The notes below the pieces were generated by a model that saw only the letters and a list, made by a program, of their open reading frames with translations, ran no database searches and was not told the DNA's origin. Both the position numbers and the translations under genes were made by a program. A stretch of DNA of 8,295 nucleotides from NCBI GenBank assembly GCA_016839845.1, contig JAEOTL010000359.1, forward strand, positions 1-8,295. Direction: 5' to 3'. This DNA is from Promethearchaeota archaeon (GTDB lineage: Archaea > Asgardarchaeota > Lokiarchaeia > Sigynarchaeales > SOKP01). Below, one piece after another: positions 1 to 8,295 of this stretch. Positions within the stretch are counted from its first letter, which is position 1; every line of letters begins with the position of its first letter.

Positions 1-3000
1 CTTCCCTTATCTATATTAATGGTGATCCCCGTCCAAACTCCAAGATTATAATCCCATCCTGCGTGGTTAGATGTGTTAAATACTCGATTGACCCCAAAGG
101 GATCTAAAATGTTTAAATTTATATCAGACGCATTAACATTCCACGAAATATTATATAAATTCAACGTAATCTGTGTTAAATTCCAATTCGTGTTAATATC
201 TGGAAGATAGAACCTTAAACTATGATCTATACTTTGAAAAATACTCATTTCCGTAGTAACACTCTCAGAAATCTCCCCATAAGCTTTAACCGATACGTCT
301 AAACTCTCTGACCAATAAACTGATTGTATTGAGTCATCATTTTGAGATTGATTTAGAATTAAAATATTTTCCAGAACACTCAATTGAAGAAGCATCTCTT
401 GAGGTATAGAATATCCCGATTTTTGAGCTGACACAAATATTAGGTAAGTTATACCACTCTCTAGATGTTCTGTATTGATAAGTGAATAGTGAGTTCCAAT
501 ATAATCACCCTCAATGCCTAATTTTCCAGAATGAATAAGTTCTGCACCTTTAAATATTTCATATGACATTAAATCGCTATAAGTAGGTCCTAATAAATGT
601 TCCGCTCCTACAGCTTTACTGACGTTAAATAACATCCTTAGTTTCAGTTGAGAGCCGTATTTTACAGAAATATAATCATTTGGGTTTAAAGAAATGAGTT
701 CTGTCTCATAATTTTCCAGTGAAATTTCAATATAAATATTATAACTTTGCGTAGCAGAAACAGTAAAATTTGTTTCTGTAACTAGGCTTTGCGTAATACT
801 CGTCATATTAAATCTTCGTGAAGCTCCAAAAAATTCAATTTCCAAAGAATAGTTTCCATTGATTCCTGAAGAATTCGTCCATCTCAATGTTGCTTTTCCC
901 CCGTTATCAGAAGTCAAGTTTACTATACTTTGACCTGTGTTCAAAGAAGCTAATAACAATTTTAGCCCACTTACTGGTTGTTGGGAAACAAGTGTAAGAA
1001 CTGTGAAGTCTACAGTTGTTAAACTCGCTTTAACTTGAATTGTGGAATTTTTTGCACTTATATCCCCTGATGCGACTGGAATAATTTGAGGAAGATAATT
1101 AGTATCCATATAATAAACAGTGTAATTATATTGGTACGGAAGAGTATCAACCCACCAAAATCGTGCGTGTCCGGTACCATCAATTGTGCAATTTTGAAGT
1201 TCATGGGTGCTATTACCGACAACAATCCACCCCGAATCAACGACAATCCCATCAATATCAACGACTTCAAAGAAATTTGAACTAATATCACAAATTATTT
1301 TGACAGTTTGAAGTGTTTGATTAATTACTATGGCTTCAGTGGTACTATTGACAATTTCGACGTGATTTCCTATGTCTGAGGTTACTGAAGCAGTAAAATT
1401 ATATTCTCCTTGAATGATATTCATGAATAGAGTATTACCATTAGAATCAGTAAGATTACTCCCAATTAAGATTGTTTGATTATATACTGAAATATTTGTG
1501 GAAGGAACTGGGTTCCCAAATAAATCTATTGCATTGACTTGAAGATTACTATACTTTATTCCCGGTTTCCCTTGTTCTTGACCTATGGAATAAAAAGAAT
1601 TAGGATCATATTGGTTATAATATTCTGTTTTAATCCAGCTATTAGAACGGGTTAGGTTCAAAACCCTAACTTCATCTAATAAGCCATCAAAATCGTACGT
1701 AGGATGAGCACATTGAAAATCTAGATTTTGAGTATCAGCTAAACTTAAAATTCCACTTATATCTACCCCTGATCCCACCTCATAACCATCTTTATAAATA
1801 CGAATTAAATCGTTTGTTCTATCAACAATTCCTACGATATATGTCCAGGAATCAAAATCAATACTTGCAGAAGGGCTAGGGCTGTTACTGATACCGTCAT
1901 TAATGTGAAATCTTAGACTATCTCCTGTCGTGGGAGTCGCAAAACAATACCCCGGATCCCATGTACTAGAAGCCCCTTTATAAAGAGGAATTTGCCATGT
2001 ACCTGTACTGGTATCAATATTTATCCACATACTAACCATAAAACTCTCCGTACTAACATCAAGATGCTCATCGGCAGGATCTCCCACATTGAAAGTACCA
2101 TCAGTTCCATAATTATAAGCATTGCTAATTTGACCGGTAGACGGGCGAATAACGGTTCCGGTTACTAGACCATTTTCACTGTAAGAAGTAGAATCTAGGG
2201 TAAACCCACTTGGTTCTGCAAGATGCCACACTCCTTTATATGAACCATCCCATACACCAGTAGGATTTTCTCGAGAACTCATAGTAGAATTCCCATAATA
2301 CATTCGAATATGGGTATCTAGTGCAGTTGAGAGTTCTGGAATTCGCACCCAGACAACTAATTCTGCGTGTGTTCCATTATAGTTTCGGTTAAATACTTCA
2401 ATTTCATGATCTAGCCAACTAGATCCTAAGGCAAAAGCGATGTCATCACCATCTGCTTGTACGTCAACACGTAAATCTTGATCATATATTGAAATTAGCA
2501 AAGGAAAATTAGAATGATATCCTGATCCATAGACAAGAAAACTATTAATTGTTATTTCTTTATAATGATTAAAATGACTAGCATCTAAAGGGGCATTCTC
2601 ATCAACTTTAATGCCATTACCAACAGAATAAAAGCTACTCGGATCATTTTGATTATTATATTCTGTAGCAATCCATTCTGCGGAACGTGCAACGTTAGAA
2701 ATCCGTGTTTCATCTATAGATCCTCTATAATAATCGCTATCTCCTCCATTACTAGCTAAATGTACTGTCCATAACCCAGAATTTGGTGTTATAGCTCCAG
2801 TTTTCGAGTCTACTAAAGAGTCATTTACATAGACCTTTACAATACTATTTGTAACACTCCAAGTCATTACTACATATATCCACTCATTTTGAGGAATATC
2901 TGCTGGTACTCTAGCAACAGTAGTCGTCCCACTAGAACCTTGATGCCTATATTCCCACTCATAATTATTGTCATATCTAAATCTGATCTTATTTGAAGAA

Positions 3001-4892
3001 TCTAGATTGAAGCATTTAACCGTCAAATGTTCTGTTTGAATGTCCCCAAATTTCCTTAAAATCCAAACCGATATACTTCCCTCAGTTGTACTAAAATCTA
3101 TTGAATCATCCCAATTTCCAAAACCAATTGTGTCATCAATCCCATCAAAATCGATACCCCCGTTAATTCTTCCCACAATTTGATCATCAGAAGTCATTGA
3201 ACCTGAAGAGGTTCCATCCTTGTTATTTGAAGTCGAATCATAAATAGTTCCTGTTGGATCTTCTGATAAATGCCATACAGCTTTATAATTAGAATCCCAT
3301 ACACCTGAAGGATTTTCTTGATTTTCCATGGTAGAATTACCATAGTACATATAAATGTCTGTATCCTTTGAATGTGATAGAACTGGAATAGAGACCCAAG
3401 CTAATAAATGAGCATGAGTACTATTATAATTCTGATTAAAAAATTCAATTTCATGAAATAACCATGACGTGCCATTATTAAAAGCTATATCATCACCATC
3501 GGATTGGGCATAATCATGCAAATCTGAATCAAAAATTGAAATTAGTACGGGGAAATTAAAAAGATTATTTGATCCTGAAACTTTTGTGTGGTCAATCGTT
3601 ATTTCTTTAAAATATTCAAAATCATTTATCGATGGTATAAAATCCTTAACTTCACTACCAACATTATAAAAGGAAATAGGATTTAATTGATTATTATATT
3701 CTGTTTTAATCCAATCTGCGCTTTTAGCGACACTTGAGATACGGACTTCATCCATCTTACCATCAAACGTGTAAGAAGTGGTGGGGCTACTACGACCATT
3801 CAACCTGAAATTTTGATTATTTGATATGTAATCTATATCACCTATTGTTCCTGTTCTGCCTGATGTCTCATCTGAACCATCTAAATAAACTCTACAACCT
3901 GCACTATTATCCTCATCCCATGTTACCACAACATATTTCCATCCTTGATCTAAGCAACCATTAGTCCCATCTACATTATATTCTGGACCATTAGAAGATA
4001 TTTCATAAAATGGTATTCCAAGGTTGTCATCATACATTTGAATAGAATATCCTTGGGATGATGATGCACCACCAGCTCTTTTACTGACAATAAAAGCAGA
4101 ATAATAGTAAAAATAATCTAAATCAATCCAAAAGCTAATAGAAAAGTCGTCTCCTTCTCCAAAATCAAGGTGCCCGTCTGCGGGATCTCCCATATTTACG
4201 GTACCCACTGTGTCTCTACTAAATAAATAAGAAGGACCTATTTTTCCCGATACTCCTTGGCTGAGACCTCCTGATGGGATTCCATCAACCCCATAGGATG
4301 TAGAATCTTTTGCATTGCCACTCAATTCTGATAAATGCCACACCCCTAAATAATTATCATCCCATACTCCTGTTGGATTCTCTCGGGAATCAATATAAGG
4401 ATTTCCATAATACATACGAATTACAGTATCAATTGATGGTGATAGAATCGGGACCTGAACCCATGCAACTAATTGGGCATGGGTACTATTATAATTTTGA
4501 TTATATAATTCAATCTCGTAATCTAACCATTCAAAATCGAGTGCAAAAGCAACATCATCGCCATCAATTTGAGTATTATCATGAAGATCCGAATCGAAAA
4601 TTGATATCAGTACGGGAAAATCAATGAGATTAACTGCTCCAGAAACTTTTGTATGATCTATTGTTATTTCTTTATAAAATTTATAATCATTAGCATTATT
4701 CGGATGATTTGAAGAAATAATAGGATTTTTAGCGTCGGGAATTTTCTCACTAGACTCTTTATCATTGTTGTGATTAAACATCATAAATAAAGGAGTGTTA
4801 AAAATTAAGGGAAGAATTATTACAATTAGCAGAAAACCAATTGATTTGGTTCGATTTTTATGTCTTTTGAAATTTTTTTTAATAATTGTCAT
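1..4892 (-). CDS. Giant surface protein with three DUF2341-LamG modules (gene A, 3' end beyond left edge)
   Basis: The reading frame is open for 1630 codons from the ATG at 4892-4890 to the left edge; I translated it throughout and met no stop or frameshift. The ATG is the first start codon after an in-frame TGA at 4920-4922. Residues 1-16 are rich in Lys/Arg, and residues 17-39 are hydrophobic (SIGFLLIVIILPLIF), fitting an export signal or signal anchor. Residues 72-412, 427-758 and 776-1104 are three tandem modules, each a DUF2341-like part followed by a LamG/concanavalin-A-like part. Residues 1115-1175 resemble a carboxypeptidase-regulatory-like domain (DLFGNPVP, then DSNGNT, then GEYNFTASV). 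Residues 1195-1560 look like further beta-sandwich domains. Residues 1563-1630 match gene B. About 29 N-X-S/T sequons are present, 21 of them after residue 1110, as expected of a glycosylated archaeal surface protein. By analogy to gene B it probably ends with a membrane helix and cytosolic tail outside the window. The likely role is glycan or surface recognition (inferred); no catalytic motif was seen. Confidence 0.9.
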   Translation of the reverse strand, partial: MTIIKKNFKRHKNRTKSIGFLLIVIILPLIFNTPLFMMFNHNNDKESSEKIPDAKNPIISSNHPNNANDYKFYKEITIDHTKVSGAVNLIDFPVLISIFDSDLHDNTQIDGDDVAFALDFEWLDYEIELYNQNYNSTHAQLVAWVQVPILSPSIDTVIRMYYGNPYIDSRENPTGVWDDNYLGVWHLSELSGNAKDSTSYGVDGIPSGGLSQGVSGKIGPSYLFSRDTVGTVNMGDPADGHLDFGEGDDFSISFWIDLDYFYYYSAFIVSKRAGGASSSQGYSIQMYDDNLGIPFYEISSNGPEYNVDGTNGCLDQGWKYVVVTWDEDNSAGCRVYLDGSDETSGRTGTIGDIDYISNNQNFRLNGRSSPTTSYTFDGKMDEVRISSVAKSADWIKTEYNNQLNPISFYNVGSEVKDFIPSINDFEYFKEITIDHTKVSGSNNLFNFPVLISIFDSDLHDYAQSDGDDIAFNNGTSWLFHEIEFFNQNYNSTHAHLLAWVSIPVLSHSKDTDIYMYYGNSTMENQENPSGVWDSNYKAVWHLSEDPTGTIYDSTSNNKDGTSSGSMTSDDQIVGRINGGIDFDGIDDTIGFGNWDDSIDFSTTEGSISVWILRKFGDIQTEHLTVKCFNLDSSNKIRFRYDNNYEWEYRHQGSSGTTTVARVPADIPQNEWIYVVMTWSVTNSIVKVYVNDSLVDSKTGAITPNSGLWTVHLASNGGDSDYYRGSIDETRISNVARSAEWIATEYNNQNDPSSFYSVGNGIKVDENAPLDASHFNHYKEITINSFLVYGSGYHSNFPLLISIYDQDLRVDVQADGDDIAFALGSSWLDHEIEVFNRNYNGTHAELVVWVRIPELSTALDTHIRMYYGNSTMSSRENPTGVWDGSYKGVWHLAEPSGFTLDSTSYSENGLVTGTVIRPSTGQISNAYNYGTDGTFNVGDPADEHLDVSTESFMVSMWINIDTSTGTWQIPLYKGASSTWDPGYCFATPTTGDSLRFHINDGISNSPSPSASIDFDSWTYIVGIVDRTNDLIRIYKDGYEVGSGVDISGILSLADTQNLDFQCAHPTYDFDGLLDEVRVLNLTRSNSWIKTEYYNQYDPNSFYSIGQEQGKPGIKYSNLQVNAIDLFGNPVPSTNISVYNQTILIGSNLTDSNGNTLFMNIIQGEYNFTASVTSDIGNHVEIVNSTTEAIVINQTLQTVKIICDISSNFFEVVDIDGIVVDSGWIVVGNSTHELQNCTIDGTGHARFWWVDTLPYQYNYTVYYMDTNYLPQIIPVASGDISAKNSTIQVKASLTTVDFTVLTLVSQQPVSGLKLLLASLNTGQSIVNLTSDNGGKATLRWTNSSGINGNYSLEIEFFGASRRFNMTSITQSLVTETNFTVSATQSYNIYIEISLENYETELISLNPNDYISVKYGSQLKLRMLFNVSKAVGAEHLLGPTYSDLMSYEIFKGAELIHSGKLGIEGDYIGTHYSLINTEHLESGITYLIFVSAQKSGYSIPQEMLLQLSVLENILILNQSQNDDSIQSVYWSESLDVSVKAYGEISESVTTEMSIFQSIDHSLRFYLPDINTNWNLTQITLNLYNISWNVNASDINLNILDPFGVNRVFNTSNHAGWDYNLGVWTGITINIDKG
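3..206 (-). repeat. Paralogous block, copy in gene A
   Basis: These are codons 1563-1630 of gene A (LPDINTNWNLTQ to TGITINIDKG). They align without gaps to 8091-8294 in gene B: 54 of 68 residues and about 164 of 204 bases agree by hand count. Shared landmarks are NISWNVNA, ILDPFGVN and SNHAGWDYNLGVWTGIT. The homology very likely continues past the left edge. Confidence 0.95.
1581..2567 (-). repeat. Module 3 of gene A: DUF2341 + LamG-like
   Basis: This covers residues 776-1104. The DUF2341-like part is the most divergent: HYKEITINSFLVYGSG, FPLLISIYDQDLR, ADGDDIAFAL, NRNYNGTHA. The LamG-like part matches module 1 better than module 2: SRENPTGVWD, GVWHLAE, DSTSY, NVGDPADEHLD, then VSMWINIDTS, WTYIVGIVD, IYKDG and FDGLLDEVRVLNLTRS. 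It closes with WIKTEYYNQ and SFYSIG. Confidence 0.85.
2619..3614 (-). repeat. Module 2 of gene A: DUF2341 + LamG-like
   Basis: This covers residues 427-758. The DUF2341-like part is nearly that of module 1: ITIDHTKVSG, FPVLISIFDSDLHD and NQNYNSTHA are identical between the two. The LamG-like part is the most divergent of the three. It has GGIDFDGIDDTIGFG in place of the NMGDPADGHLD stretch, then SISVWILRKFGD, WIYVVMTW and VYVNDS. It ends with YRGSIDETRISNVARSAEW, TEYNNQ and SFYSVG. Confidence 0.85.
3657..4679 (-). repeat. Module 1 of gene A: DUF2341 + LamG-like
   Basis: This covers residues 72-412. The DUF2341-like part has FYKEITIDHTKVSG, FPVLISIFDSDLHD (92-105), IDGDDVAF, NQNYNSTHA and RMYYGN. 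The LamG-like part starts at GVWHLSE (about 183-189) and includes DSTSY, NMGDPADGHLDF, SISFWIDLD, KYVVVTWD and VYLDG. It closes with FDGKMDEVRIS, WIKTEYNNQ and SFYNVG. This order is typical of DUF2341 domains followed by Laminin_G_3-type lectin folds in prokaryotic surface proteins. Cys313 and Cys333 could pair, but this is not testable here. Confidence 0.85.
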
Positions 4893-5018: not shown

Positions 5019-8000
5019 TTATTGTTCTTCTGATTTTAGGTTATAATAGGCTTCTTCAAGTATGTTAAGATATTGGATTAGTACTTTGTCGGATTTAGAC
5101 TTTTGGTCATTTAATACCTTAATTGCATTTAATAGGTATTTTGGAAAAATCAGATTCACGCGAAAGTCAGTAAGGAGGGTATAATATTCTACTCCATTCT
5201 CATCTTTGAAGACTCTGATCATATTTGTATCCCATAACTTTCTCAATACACCATAAATATCACTAACGCCTTTATTTTTTAATTTCTCAAAATCTTTCAT
5301 CGTAACTATTGCTGTTCTTAACAATCGTACTGTTTCGTACACTTCAGGATCAATTAAATTATCAAGAAGCTTAATCGTATCTTCTTCCGTTGGATAATAT
5401 ACGTTGAAGAATTTCTGAACTTCATCTTGATATTGTTTAATTAATGTTGTTGGTAATCCATAACTCGCAGGATCTTTAAATAAACTATCTGGTGGTACCC
5501 GGATCATGAAAATATCCTTTGTAAGAAAGATTAACTCGGACGGAATTCCTTTTACCGAAGCCACCTTAATTAAGTCAATCTTAACAAGCTCAGCTAGTAT
5601 TGCTTCCAAGTCAATTATCCCTTCTAATTCTCTATCTCTCACCCAGATTATCAATTCTGACTTAGTTATTACCCCATAATCTCTTAAAGTATTGATAATC
5701 ATTTGTTTGACAGAATCCTGATAGTAAAAGATAAGATTTTGCTCAAAAGAAAGAGATGGAAAAACTGACAAACGCTGAAAGAATGAAGGAATCATTTCAA
5801 GGTAAATTTCATCTTCAAGGTTTTGTAAAATTAACTGGGCTACGTTTGACATTGCTCCTTCATATATATCAGGATCATCCTCCTCACTTAAGATTAAGAT
5901 AATATAATAACCTGTATCGGGACCAGTATAGTATGATAAGACGTTTAAGTTCCCCCTTATTAAAGTAATTAACCCTTTTTCCCCACTATATTCATGAGTT
6001 CCATAGATTTGCATTAATGTTTTGTCAGACAAATTTGCATCTTCTGGATATTTTGCTAAGAGATCTACTCCTACTCTTTCATCCCATTTCATCAACATCA
6101 GTCCCAATGGTTTGAGACCATGAGCTTCCTGAGATTCAAGGTATTTTTTTTCAGGTAACTTCTTACTTTTTTTGATTTCAATACCAAGAATATCTCCCAT
6201 CGAAAGACCAATATTACTCCATTTATCTCTCACTATCTCCCCCACATAAACTTCTTTAGGGGAATATAACAACGATTCTGACACTTCTTTACCATCTTTA
6301 ATTTCTTTTTTCATCTCTCTTACGTTTTTGACGAAAGCAGGAATTTTCGCATTTTTAATGACTCGATATCCGACCAAGCTCCCCACAACAGCAAGAATAG
6401 CAAAAATGATTATCAAAAAGTAAAAAGTTGGCATACCAGGGAAAATTTCTTCCATTTCAACTATGATTGTAATGAAAAACTGTTCTGAGAAATAATCTTC
6501 TCTGGTAATATTAATAATTCCTGTAAAGGTTTTTGAAGAGAAAAATGTATCCACATCATCAGTCTGGAAATTATACCTGTATGTACCATTAACATAATCA
6601 AAAATATAGACATTCCCTTTAATTGTAAGGATTACAGTAGCATTTAATAACGGAATGCCTCCTCTTGTTGGATCAGTTAAGTTTACTTGGATTAAAACAT
6701 CTCTCCCTTTTAATACGTTCAATCGATTGTCTTTAAAATTATTACTTAAAGAATATGAAAGAAAACGGGTCTTAATTGTGAGAAGAATCATGGCATTCTT
6801 ATATTCATAATTCTCTTTCTCTAAGTTCACAATTAATAAATAGTCTCCAACATCTCTCGTCTCAGAATCGAAATCTAATATAAGGGAACCGTCATCATCT
6901 TGAACTAATGTTCCTGCGCCATCATCAGTAACATTTCCGTGAATATCATATTTTTCCCATATAAAAGATTGGATTGTTAAATCTGTAATTAAATTACCAT
7001 TTAACTCATCTGTGTATAAAAAAGTGAAATTGACTGCGTCTTTAACGTAGATGAATTCAAGTTTTCTAGATATTCTAGAATCTCCATTTACTAGGGTTAA
7101 ACGATTCATTACGATGAAATCCAAATCCCTAAATGCCGTTTTATAATTCTCCTTAAATACTTCTAAATTAATAGTGTAATGGTCTGCATTTATTAGAGAT
7201 GTATCTATTTTTTGTAAGTATTCTCCCAAACTGGGATAATAGTTAACTGTTCCACGAATATCTGGAGATTCTTTTATGAAATATGTTACTGTTCCTAAAG
7301 TTTCATAAGTAGTTTTTCTTGAATAGCTTATTTTATAAGAAAGCGTAAAATTAACTGGTTGATTAGTTTCTATTACGGTTGAATATACACTATCTTTATT
7401 TAGACCGGTTAACGAAACAATTCCTTGTCCTGGGAGGGTATTAACGACGCTATACCTTTGACCTCCTATTGTTATGTTCATTGCAACATCTGAGGGATAA
7501 AAGTATTGAATTTGGTTATTTATGCCATTAATTAATAAGACGGCATAACTTTCATCCCAATTATTATCTGTTAAACCTAATTGATAAAGCCCCCCGTTCG
7601 GTATATCATTTTGTATGTCTGAAATATTTAAGGTTTCCAAATATTGATTTTGGTAGAATTCTTGAACATAGTCAACCTCAATAATCACATCAAAAATAAC
7701 ATTTAATTCACTTTCAATATAAAATACAAATTGATTATTGAGAGGATAGATAATTCTATCATCAATTTGTAATACTCCACTTCCGTTTTCATCTCCAGAA
7801 TCAAGAAAATATTTGAATCCATTAGCAGTAGATATATTTAAATTCGTCAGAGTAGATAGATTTACCTTTTCCCAAGTAGAGGTATTATAACAATTTTCAA
7901 TCAAAAATGTGATATTCTTTATTGCCCACCCTTCAGATTCAGATAAAATAGAAATTGAGTTTGACACGTTATATTTTCGGTATTGAGCACTAATTTCGTC

Positions 8001-8295
8001 TCTAATGAAGGATGCATCAACAATAGCATCTATAGTATTATCAAATGTTCCACTAATAAAGAATTCAAAATTATTATCAAAAGTAGGGCTTTCTTTATCT
8101 ATATTCAAAGTTATACCTGTCCAGACACCAAGATTATAATCCCATCCCGCGTGGTTAGAAGCATTATATATCCAATTGACGCCAAAGGGATCCAAGATGG
8201 ATAAATTTATATCAGCCGCATTAACATTCCAGGAGATATTAAAAATATTGAATGTAATTTGTGTTAGATTCCAATTACTTTCAATGTTTGGGAGA
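5019..8295 (-). CDS. Single-pass membrane receptor-like protein with longin-like/winged-helix cytosolic tail (gene B, 5' end beyond right edge)
   Basis: There are 1091 codons from 8294 to the TAA at 5021-5019. The frame is open to the right edge, so the true start is outside the window; a TTG at 8195-8193 could be read as a start but lies inside the block conserved with gene A. Numbering from the 8294 codon, residues 1 to about 615 are beta-rich and sequon-rich, with two similar domains (8-97 and 123-210) and Ig-like segments such as LEKENYEYKNA and ITREDYFSE before the membrane. Residues 622-645 (PTFYFLIIIFAILAVVGSLV) are the single transmembrane helix, followed by basic residues, so the C-terminus is cytosolic. 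The tail has a juxtamembrane segment (646-725), a longin/roadblock-like domain (731-830), and winged-helix-like domains (about 861-933 and 984-1063). No enzyme motif is visible. I infer that it couples binding outside the cell to protein interactions or regulation inside. Similar tails occur, as I recall, in Asgard archaeal hypothetical proteins; no named family is certain. Confidence 0.92.
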   Translation of the reverse strand, partial: LPNIESNWNLTQITFNIFNISWNVNAADINLSILDPFGVNWIYNASNHAGWDYNLGVWTGITLNIDKESPTFDNNFEFFISGTFDNTIDAIVDASFIRDEISAQYRKYNVSNSISILSESEGWAIKNITFLIENCYNTSTWEKVNLSTLTNLNISTANGFKYFLDSGDENGSGVLQIDDRIIYPLNNQFVFYIESELNVIFDVIIEVDYVQEFYQNQYLETLNISDIQNDIPNGGLYQLGLTDNNWDESYAVLLINGINNQIQYFYPSDVAMNITIGGQRYSVVNTLPGQGIVSLTGLNKDSVYSTVIETNQPVNFTLSYKISYSRKTTYETLGTVTYFIKESPDIRGTVNYYPSLGEYLQKIDTSLINADHYTINLEVFKENYKTAFRDLDFIVMNRLTLVNGDSRISRKLEFIYVKDAVNFTFLYTDELNGNLITDLTIQSFIWEKYDIHGNVTDDGAGTLVQDDDGSLILDFDSETRDVGDYLLIVNLEKENYEYKNAMILLTIKTRFLSYSLSNNFKDNRLNVLKGRDVLIQVNLTDPTRGGIPLLNATVILTIKGNVYIFDYVNGTYRYNFQTDDVDTFFSSKTFTGIINITREDYFSEQFFITIIVEMEEIFPGMPTFYFLIIIFAILAVVGSLVGYRVIKNAKIPAFVKNVREMKKEIKDGKEVSESLLYSPKEVYVGEIVRDKWSNIGLSMGDILGIEIKKSKKLPEKKYLESQEAHGLKPLGLMLMKWDERVGVDLLAKYPEDANLSDKTLMQIYGTHEYSGEKGLITLIRGNLNVLSYYTGPDTGYYIILILSEEDDPDIYEGAMSNVAQLILQNLEDEIYLEMIPSFFQRLSVFPSLSFEQNLIFYYQDSVKQMIINTLRDYGVITKSELIIWVRDRELEGIIDLEAILAELVKIDLIKVASVKGIPSELIFLTKDIFMIRVPPDSLFKDPASYGLPTTLIKQYQDEVQKFFNVYYPTEEDTIKLLDNLIDPEVYETVRLLRTAIVTMKDFEKLKNKGVSDIYGVLRKLWDTNMIRVFKDENGVEYYTLLTDFRVNLIFPKYLLNAIKVLNDQKSKSDKVLIQYLNILEEAYYNLKSEEQ
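5106..5345 (-). other. Second winged-helix-like domain of gene B
   Basis: It begins ETVRLLRTAIVTMKDFEKLK and continues with VSDIYGVLRKLWDTNMIRVF, then the wing-like strands VEYYTLLTDFRVNLIFP, and ends in a helix (KYLLNAIKVLND). The pattern is like the first winged helix but shares little sequence with it. It sits just before the C-terminal helix that ends the protein. Confidence 0.45.
5496..5714 (-). other. First winged-helix-like domain of gene B
   Basis: It has three helices followed by a wing: DSVKQMIINTLRDYGVITKS, then ELIIWVRDRE, then LEAILAELVKIDLIKVASV, then SELIFLTKDIFMIRVPP as hairpin strands. Winged helices can bind DNA or act purely as protein-protein modules, as in ESCRT subunits. 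A membrane-tethered protein makes the latter at least as likely. Confidence 0.5.
5796..6104 (-). other. Longin/roadblock-like cytosolic domain of gene B
   Basis: About 100 residues follow a two-strand, helix, three-strand, helix order: LGLMLMKWDERVGVDLLAKY (strands), LSDKTLMQIYGTHEY (helix), GLITLIRGNLNVLSYYTG and GYYIILILSEEDD (strands), then DIYEGAMSNVAQLILQNLED (helix). That order fits the longin/roadblock/profilin-like fold, which in eukaryotes and Asgard archaea is often found in regulators or partners of small GTPases. The assignment rests on predicted secondary structure by eye, not on a profile match. Confidence 0.5.
6360..6431 (-). other. Transmembrane helix of gene B
   Basis: This encodes 24 residues starting PTFYFLIIIFAILAVVGSLV. 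Acidic residues precede it (EMEEIF) and basic residues follow (YRVIKNAK, then VKNVREMKKEIK). The positive-inside rule puts the long N-terminal part outside the cell and the 446-residue C-terminal part in the cytosol. It is the only strongly hydrophobic span in the visible part of gene B. Confidence 0.9.
8091..8294 (-). repeat. Paralogous block, copy in gene B
   Basis: These are the first 68 codons of gene B visible in the window, homologous to 3-206 in gene A at a constant offset of 8088 bases. The block is the front part of a beta-sandwich-like domain rich in N-X-S/T sequons. Confidence 0.95.

Follow-up and report, generated by a model that had tools for sequence, protein, structure and literature searches.

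A lokiarchaeal receptor-like protein with a longin/double-winged-helix tail whose family often adjoins genes for small GTPases

The stretch analysed here, hereafter the window, comprises 8,295 nucleotides of a Promethearchaeota archaeon (GenBank assembly GCA_016839845.1, contig JAEOTL010000359.1) and carries two long genes on its minus strand, each open at one end. The subject of this report is gene 1, of which 1091 amino acids can be read: a 623-residue outside part, one membrane helix and a 446-residue tail. The longin/winged-helix part of this tail, which elsewhere also occurs as a separate protein, is called the platform below. The features of the window are as follows.

5019..8294, minus strand: gene 1, receptor fused to longin/winged-helix tail; 5′ end open at the window edge, stop codon 5019-5021
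6426..8294, minus strand: C-terminal part of the outside domain, beta-rich, with many N-glycosylation sequons (residues 1-623 of P0001)
6369..6425, minus strand: single membrane helix FYFLIIIFAILAVVGSLVG
6111..6359, minus strand: basic juxtamembrane segment (tail 1-83; helices 8-21, 35-48 and 54-58)
5748..6110, minus strand: longin domain (tail 84-204), the start point of the separate gene in split loci
5490..5747, minus strand: winged helix 1, acidic (tail 205-290)
5349..5489, minus strand: helical linker (tail 291-337)
5142..5348, minus strand: winged helix 2 (tail 338-406)
5022..5141, minus strand: C-terminal helices (tail 407-446)
3..4892, minus strand: gene 2, tandem paralogue of gene 1; 3′ end open, hydrophobic signal-like helix at residues 18-36

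Comparison of the final 67 readable residues of gene 2 with the initial 67 readable residues of gene 1 gives 81% identity, and we therefore regard the two genes as tandem paralogues. Gene 2 contains LamG (E 4.4e-49) and DUF2341 (E 3.7e-17) domains, which are also present outside the membrane in relatives of gene 1, and from this kinship the N-terminus of gene 1 is very probably of the same kind as that of gene 2.

Sequons are enriched in the outside part of gene 1 (19, versus 10.0+-3.0 in shuffled sequences) and not in the tail (1 versus 1.9), and the same pattern extends over 55 homologues, whose outside parts carry 981 sequons versus 533 expected from shuffles (36,398 residues) and whose core tails carry 32 versus 78 (18,960 residues). 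The segment directly after the membrane helix, tail 1-83, is basic, with a predicted isoelectric point (pI) of 9.4. Most relatives encode the longin/winged-helix domain separately, as a protein that starts at an ATG of its own, and the occurrence of this domain as a gene of cytosolic type in these split loci is the best, genetic, evidence that the tail lies inside. By computation, gene 1 thus has the plan of a single-pass receptor, with one membrane helix, a glycosylatable outside part and an inside tail, and its product is predicted to be a single-pass surface receptor or adhesin of Lokiarchaea. An earlier interpretation made from the DNA letters alone (hereafter the sequence-only reading) had proposed just this architecture, and its helix (6369-6425), its large outside part, here found to be rich in sequons, and its 446-residue tail are all borne out; the sequons and the separate genes also agree in placing the tail inside the cell and not outside, the position which that reading had held to be incompatible with its proposal.

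An AlphaFold2 model of the tail (predicted local distance difference test, pLDDT, 88.2) consists of juxtamembrane helices, a longin domain and two winged helices. The sequence-only reading had described a longin/roadblock-like pattern here; the longin half of that description stands, as the modelled domain has the longin topology bbabbbaa, while the roadblock fold was rejected, since the domain starts with two strands and not with a helix before the first strand. The two winged-helix-like patterns of the same reading were both modelled and both matched in fold searches, which returned longin and winged-helix folds for the tail and not a known enzyme or an unrelated fold. For the winged-helix half, the best Foldseek match was ESCRT-II chain 2zme_A (E 9.5e-3), with template modelling (TM) scores of 0.23 to 0.25. 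DENN entries align with the tail mainly via the longin, two winged helices standing where the DENN module has DENN and d-DENN; DENN domains were not seen in the fold-search lists of the tail, and absence from such lists is no proof. By sequence, the window tail matched nothing in Pfam or NCBIfam, 45 family members matched 25 Pfam families, all weakly (best E 8.7e-4) and several of them winged-helix families, and seven divergent or distant members again gave only weak Pfam matches, the best (0.0031) to a helix-turn-helix family. Searches of PDB sequences with the tail and with the family alignment yielded weak, unconnected matches only. Within the family, Arg95 in the first hairpin of the longin is kept in 38 of the 45 members.

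The nearest public protein, P0003 (Promethearchaeota archaeon), is 99% identical across the tail, and the protein search found 54 more homologues. That all 55 are long and receptor-bearing is partly due to the search itself, which admitted only proteins of about 600-1909 amino acids; separate platform genes were revealed by a DNA scan of lokiarchaeal genomes, in which the best 80 of 90 relatives were kept, giving 75 loci. Every one of the 75 is titled Lokiarchaeota or Lokiarchaeia, which agrees with the Asgard-like origin already suggested from the letters alone. The loci (designated by L numbers) hold the longin/winged-helix core in 98 open reading frames (ORFs): 78 separate, 17 fused, and 3 (L012, L023 and L024) of fused type but interrupted, because the contig ends, the sequence is masked or the frame is broken.

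The separate platform genes encode 287-381 amino acids (mostly about 370; one of the shortest is truncated by a contig end), and a receptor-type ORF lies immediately 5′ of 69 of the 78. At these 69 junctions the two frames overlap by 1 base (40 cases), meet with zero gap (14) or are separated by 1-29 bases (15). Among 35 printed junctions, picked by hand from the scan, 15 show an overlapping TAATG and 13 an abutting TAA/TAG-ATG, and 31 have GGAGGT at most some 20 nt 5′ of the stop codon of the receptor, which puts the Shine-Dalgarno sequence into the last codons of the receptor. We infer that these junctions have the anatomy of translational coupling. Receptors in split loci end near the equivalent of tail residue 72-82, and a hidden Markov model (HMM) of the juxtamembrane segment matches the C-terminal end of 60 split-locus receptor ORFs with E 1.6e-13 or better.

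In a tree of 99 cores, made with a quick method, the 18 fused rows (window included) and the 3 interrupted fused-type rows form one 21-row clade (Shimodaira-Hasegawa-like approximate likelihood ratio test, SH-aLRT, 99), and the window core groups with L001-L004. Since all fused rows fall into a single clade, receptor and platform were fused once, in the lineage that includes the window. The fused form has also been duplicated locally: at G094:C9:438700-464784, four family matches, each within an open frame of 2655-2678 amino acids, stand in tandem about 8 kb apart.

Turning to the gene neighbourhood, the family has a match (E <= 1e-3) in 106 of the 148 genomes that were drawn from the phylum, and these 106 carry between 1 and 11 copies. 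In Lokiarchaea, a GTPase gene lies no more than two ORFs away from 32 of the 98 cores (fused 8/17, fused-type 1/3, separate 23/78), and many loci end there. The next downstream gene encodes a GTPase of cluster c5 in 15 of the 96 core ORFs that have a downstream ORF, with one more downstream GTPase, at L065, being without the second motif (it would make 16/96); four fused loci have a c5 GTPase upstream. Pfam assigns the neighbourhood GTPases to the Arf/Ras/Roc family, including one double GTPase and one with a roadblock-like N-domain. Two complete lokiarchaeal chromosomes contain 79 and 55 PF00071 matches, and their six closest family members (E < 1e-100; four places) lie 368-873 bp from such a match, a closeness which random intervals of equal length reach in 4-16% each.

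The link recurs in other genomes of the phylum. We compared 21 family genes (cut-off E < 1e-20) in 18 regions from 17 such genomes, 16 of the regions picked before and 2 after an intermediate result, with 275 control genes in 20 regions from 8 of the 17. A GTPase is encoded within two genes of 14/21 family genes versus 8/275 controls, a giant secreted protein within two genes of 9/21 versus 14/275, and one or the other or both near 21/21 versus 20/275. Genomic linkage to small GTPases above background is therefore a property of the family, excepting seven divergent paralogues considered below, and the GTPase connection proposed by the sequence-only reading is backed by a controlled neighbourhood comparison; physical binding, and control in one direction or the other, are presumed. 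Our reading of the neighbourhoods distinguishes at least six gene orders around platform genes, with the following pairs.

Platform-GTPase pairs, same strand: L142 (4609-5685 and 5698-6540), L135, L136, L143, L146, L131
Platform-receptor pairs: L129 (twice), L132, L144

The linked GTPases appear to be of one kind. With the platform-adjacent GTPase of L142, a region of one of the other genomes, as query, a platform-adjacent GTPase ranks first of 57 and first of 35 matches in the two complete lokiarchaeal chromosomes, with 39% identity in each case; going by these rankings, the GTPase subfamily linked in other genomes is the one also linked in Lokiarchaea. A profile of the N-domains of 15 neighbourhood GTPases finds AP-2 sigma (E 4.1e-6), AP-3 sigma (0.0046), AP-1 sigma (0.037) and, weakly, MON1 (0.23), and the Pfam small-chain family matches 7 of the 15 below its cut-off. 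The sigma-adaptin matches indicate that the linked GTPase brings a sigma-adaptin-like longin of its own.

A second GTPase, of Gtr1/RagA type (cluster c8, about 310 amino acids; PF04670 E 1.2e-23 for one member), occurs in 22 of the 75 loci, including L006, L017 and L029 (e.g., L017:986-1915:+). Mostly its gene precedes a split unit at a distance of a few genes and belongs to a conserved block that also holds ThiI-like and ThiS-like genes (named by eye). We do not take it as the main partner because it is usually several genes off, with opposite-strand genes between.

Several further genes recur around the units. A RuBisCO-like gene (named by eye) is found in 41 of the 75 loci (e.g., L027:11483-12814:+), directly after the separate platform gene in 34, and a gelsolin-like gene (cluster c6, named by eye) in the neighbourhood of 26 (e.g., L017:16531-17397). 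Cluster c15 (L033:11466-12323:- and six other loci) is a protein of about 286 amino acids, encoded between fused receptors and a GTPase gene; one member was searched against Pfam, without a match. A second protein of about 300 amino acids, which matches the family weakly (E 0.0012 to 0.015), stands beside longin-GTPase and platform at L138:2432-3349, L139:2841-3758, L141:6954-7898 and L145:6262-7161 and may be a longin partner, in analogy to the pair of NPRL3 and NPRL2. In several platform-GTPase neighbourhoods a small charged protein (110-120 amino acids) follows the GTPase (L142:6553-6885, L136:3956-4294, L146:7314-7676). In the other genomes, the cytosolic tails of two giant proteins next to platforms, L129:5607-12206:+ and L140:5396-7477:+, are long and very acidic (265 and 336 amino acids), whereas those of the lokiarchaeal receptors are short and basic.

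The interpretation that we favour, and hold to be somewhat better than an even bet, is that gene 1 encodes a single-pass receptor or adhesin with a cytosolic GTPase-regulating platform, which would recruit or regulate the longin-GTPase. The platform would sit on the basic juxtamembrane helices of the receptor, and its longin would pair with the longin of the linked Arf/Ras-like GTPase, the winged helices acting as protein-protein joints, as in ESCRT-II and NPRL2/3, instead of binding DNA. When the outside part binds a ligand or is clustered, the GTPase might then be recruited, or its nucleotide state changed, at one place of the membrane, so that membrane traffic, membrane shape or adhesion might be controlled locally. 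Precedents for such pairing are TRAPP, Ragulator and GATOR1, with their paired longin and roadblock domains. Dimeric GTPase platforms formed by longin and roadblock proteins elsewhere are described in PMC10933270. The platform might activate the GTPase, inactivate it or only recruit it. Of the two outputs named by the sequence-only reading, control of trafficking is made plausible by the sigma-adaptin-like longin of the linked GTPases; the other, transcription control, is taken up below.

Several observations weigh against a GTPase-regulating receptor. The downstream neighbour is a GTPase in only 15 (or 16) of 96 lokiarchaeal cases versus the RuBisCO-like gene in 34, and most linked GTPases of split loci are encoded on the other strand. 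Among 13 family matches in the two complete chromosomes, 7 are divergent; the closest Ras-family match is 2.0 to 82 kb away from these, so that not one of them has such a match inside 1 kb. Both a GTPase and a giant protein are near only 2 of the 21 family genes of other genomes; several of these regions are mutually orthologous and the genomes related, so that they are not independent, and the rules for GTPase motif and giant-protein size were written after the neighbourhoods had been seen, so that Fisher P values overstate the contrast. Finally, against receptors of other genomes the juxtamembrane HMM gave no significant match (E 1.3 and 4.0, with reversed decoys down to 0.022). A juxtamembrane motif common to these receptors, convincing by eye, was accordingly not used.

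The sigma-adaptin likeness also allows for a cargo-sorting adaptor. Here longin-GTPase and longin/winged-helix protein would assemble into a primitive coat, and the tail would label the giant surface protein as its cargo, the system serving delivery or retention of surface proteins and not ligand sensing. The matches of the GTPase N-domains to AP-2, AP-3 and AP-1 sigma, and weakly to MON1, fit this idea, as does the ESCRT-II chain at the top of the Foldseek matches of the winged-helix half, and the same family adjoins giant proteins having unlike cytosolic tails. However, no large coat subunit was recognised in the printed neighbourhoods, where most neighbours were not searched, and a one-to-one coupled gene pair or fusion would be unusual for a general sorting adaptor. 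We consider this explanation rather unlikely.

Considerably less probable is a nutrient or contact sensor like GATOR1, in which the tail would be a longin GTPase-activating subunit for Rag-type GTPases, on the NPRL2/NPRL3 design. GATOR1 chains do top both structure lists for the tail, but VIA rows that differ by less than 1 Z in the fold search count as tied, and these also include Ykt6 and a lokiarchaeal longin; moreover, the tail models have two winged helices, not three. Nor did sequence comparison lend support: PF06218 (NPR2), a result that covers this family alone (PF03666 was not searched by itself), gave no match up to E 10 in two genomes or up to E 1 in 45 members, and hhalign of the family against NPRL2 gave a probability of 0.6% (repeat 0.6%; reversed NPRL2 0.2%), with a narrow vertebrate NPRL2 profile (effective sequence number, Neff, 1.47). 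Homology to NPRL2 by sequence was hence dropped and structural resemblance only retained. We take the Arg finger of NPRL2 to be placed in the hairpin that precedes strand 5, and at the residues concerned (145-150) no Arg is conserved among the 45 members. Further, opposite-strand genes usually stand between the RagA-type gene and the unit.

A membrane-tethered DNA-binding regulator, whose winged helices would tie the surface to transcription or chromosome position, we regard as highly improbable. In structure searches both winged helices resemble MarR/ArsR-type repressors of bacteria and archaea, but the predicted pI is 4.1 for the longin, 4.8 for winged helix 1 and 5.0 for the whole tail, winged helix 2 being mildly basic (8.6), and the longin and the GTPase linkage would be left unexplained. 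Because the longin and winged helix 1 are so acidic, transcription control is the weak part of what the sequence-only reading had suggested. Least credible of all is a neutral fusion in a syntenic region, with neighbours kept by inherited gene order and no joint function: split units of Lokiarchaea do stand in a broadly conserved gene order, RuBisCO-like gene included, and the divergent paralogues are without GTPase linkage, but the fused form is retained and duplicated across many loci, and the link to GTPases or giant proteins recurs in different gene orders of other genomes.

Extending the receptor-platform interpretation beyond Lokiarchaea, we tentatively consider, as an idea that is rather more doubtful than the receptor itself, a conserved Asgard transmembrane module running from giant receptor through longin/double-winged-helix platform to sigma-adaptin-like longin-GTPase, which would couple surface events to GTPase switching and of which eukaryotic longin platforms (NPRL2/3, DENN, MON1-CCZ1, coat small chains) would descend from, or parallel, parts. 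If true, this would be, to our knowledge, the first prokaryotic receptor system to address Arf/Rab/Rag-like GTPases directly. Lokiarchaea are close archaeal relatives of complex cells, and in eukaryotes such GTPase switches run membrane traffic; Asgard genomes encode dozens of small GTPases whose inputs are, as far as we know, largely unknown. A recurring neighbourhood of surface protein, regulator and GTPase, with natural fusions, offers a concrete and testable wiring diagram for eukaryote-like switches outside eukaryotes, and the receptor-platform fusion together with this neighbourhood suggests an old wiring of the cell surface to traffic-type GTPase switches.

Among known systems, NPRL2 and NPRL3 of GATOR1 (Npr2/Npr3 of SEACIT) are similar in having an N-terminal longin followed by tandem winged helices in about 370-380 amino acids. 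According to PMC3521125, they comprise a longin and three winged helices, whereas the family described here has two, is membrane-anchored where fused to a receptor and lacks the conserved Arg at the presumed finger position. An 'NPRL2-like longin domain' asCOG class is among those enriched in Ca. L. ossiferum (PMC9834061), so that the separate members of about 370 amino acids may already be catalogued in it; in the part of that paper accessible here, we found no description of giant-receptor fusion, coupling or GTPase linkage. The linked GTPases are of the longin- and roadblock-GTPase kinds known from Asgard archaea (PMC10933270), the difference being that in the present case the GTPase linkage of a single longin family clearly exceeds that of controls. 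Among the papers listed in our literature searches, supplements and subscription papers lying outside their scope, we saw no account of a receptor fused to this platform, of the two as coupled genes or of a module with all three parts. ESCRT-II shares paired tandem winged helices of resembling fold (2zme_A), without a longin and at TM scores of only 0.23 to 0.25. Lastly, the giant LamG/DUF2341 surface proteins share the type of outside domain seen in gene 2 and relatives; unlike them, gene 1 carries a defined cytosolic module.
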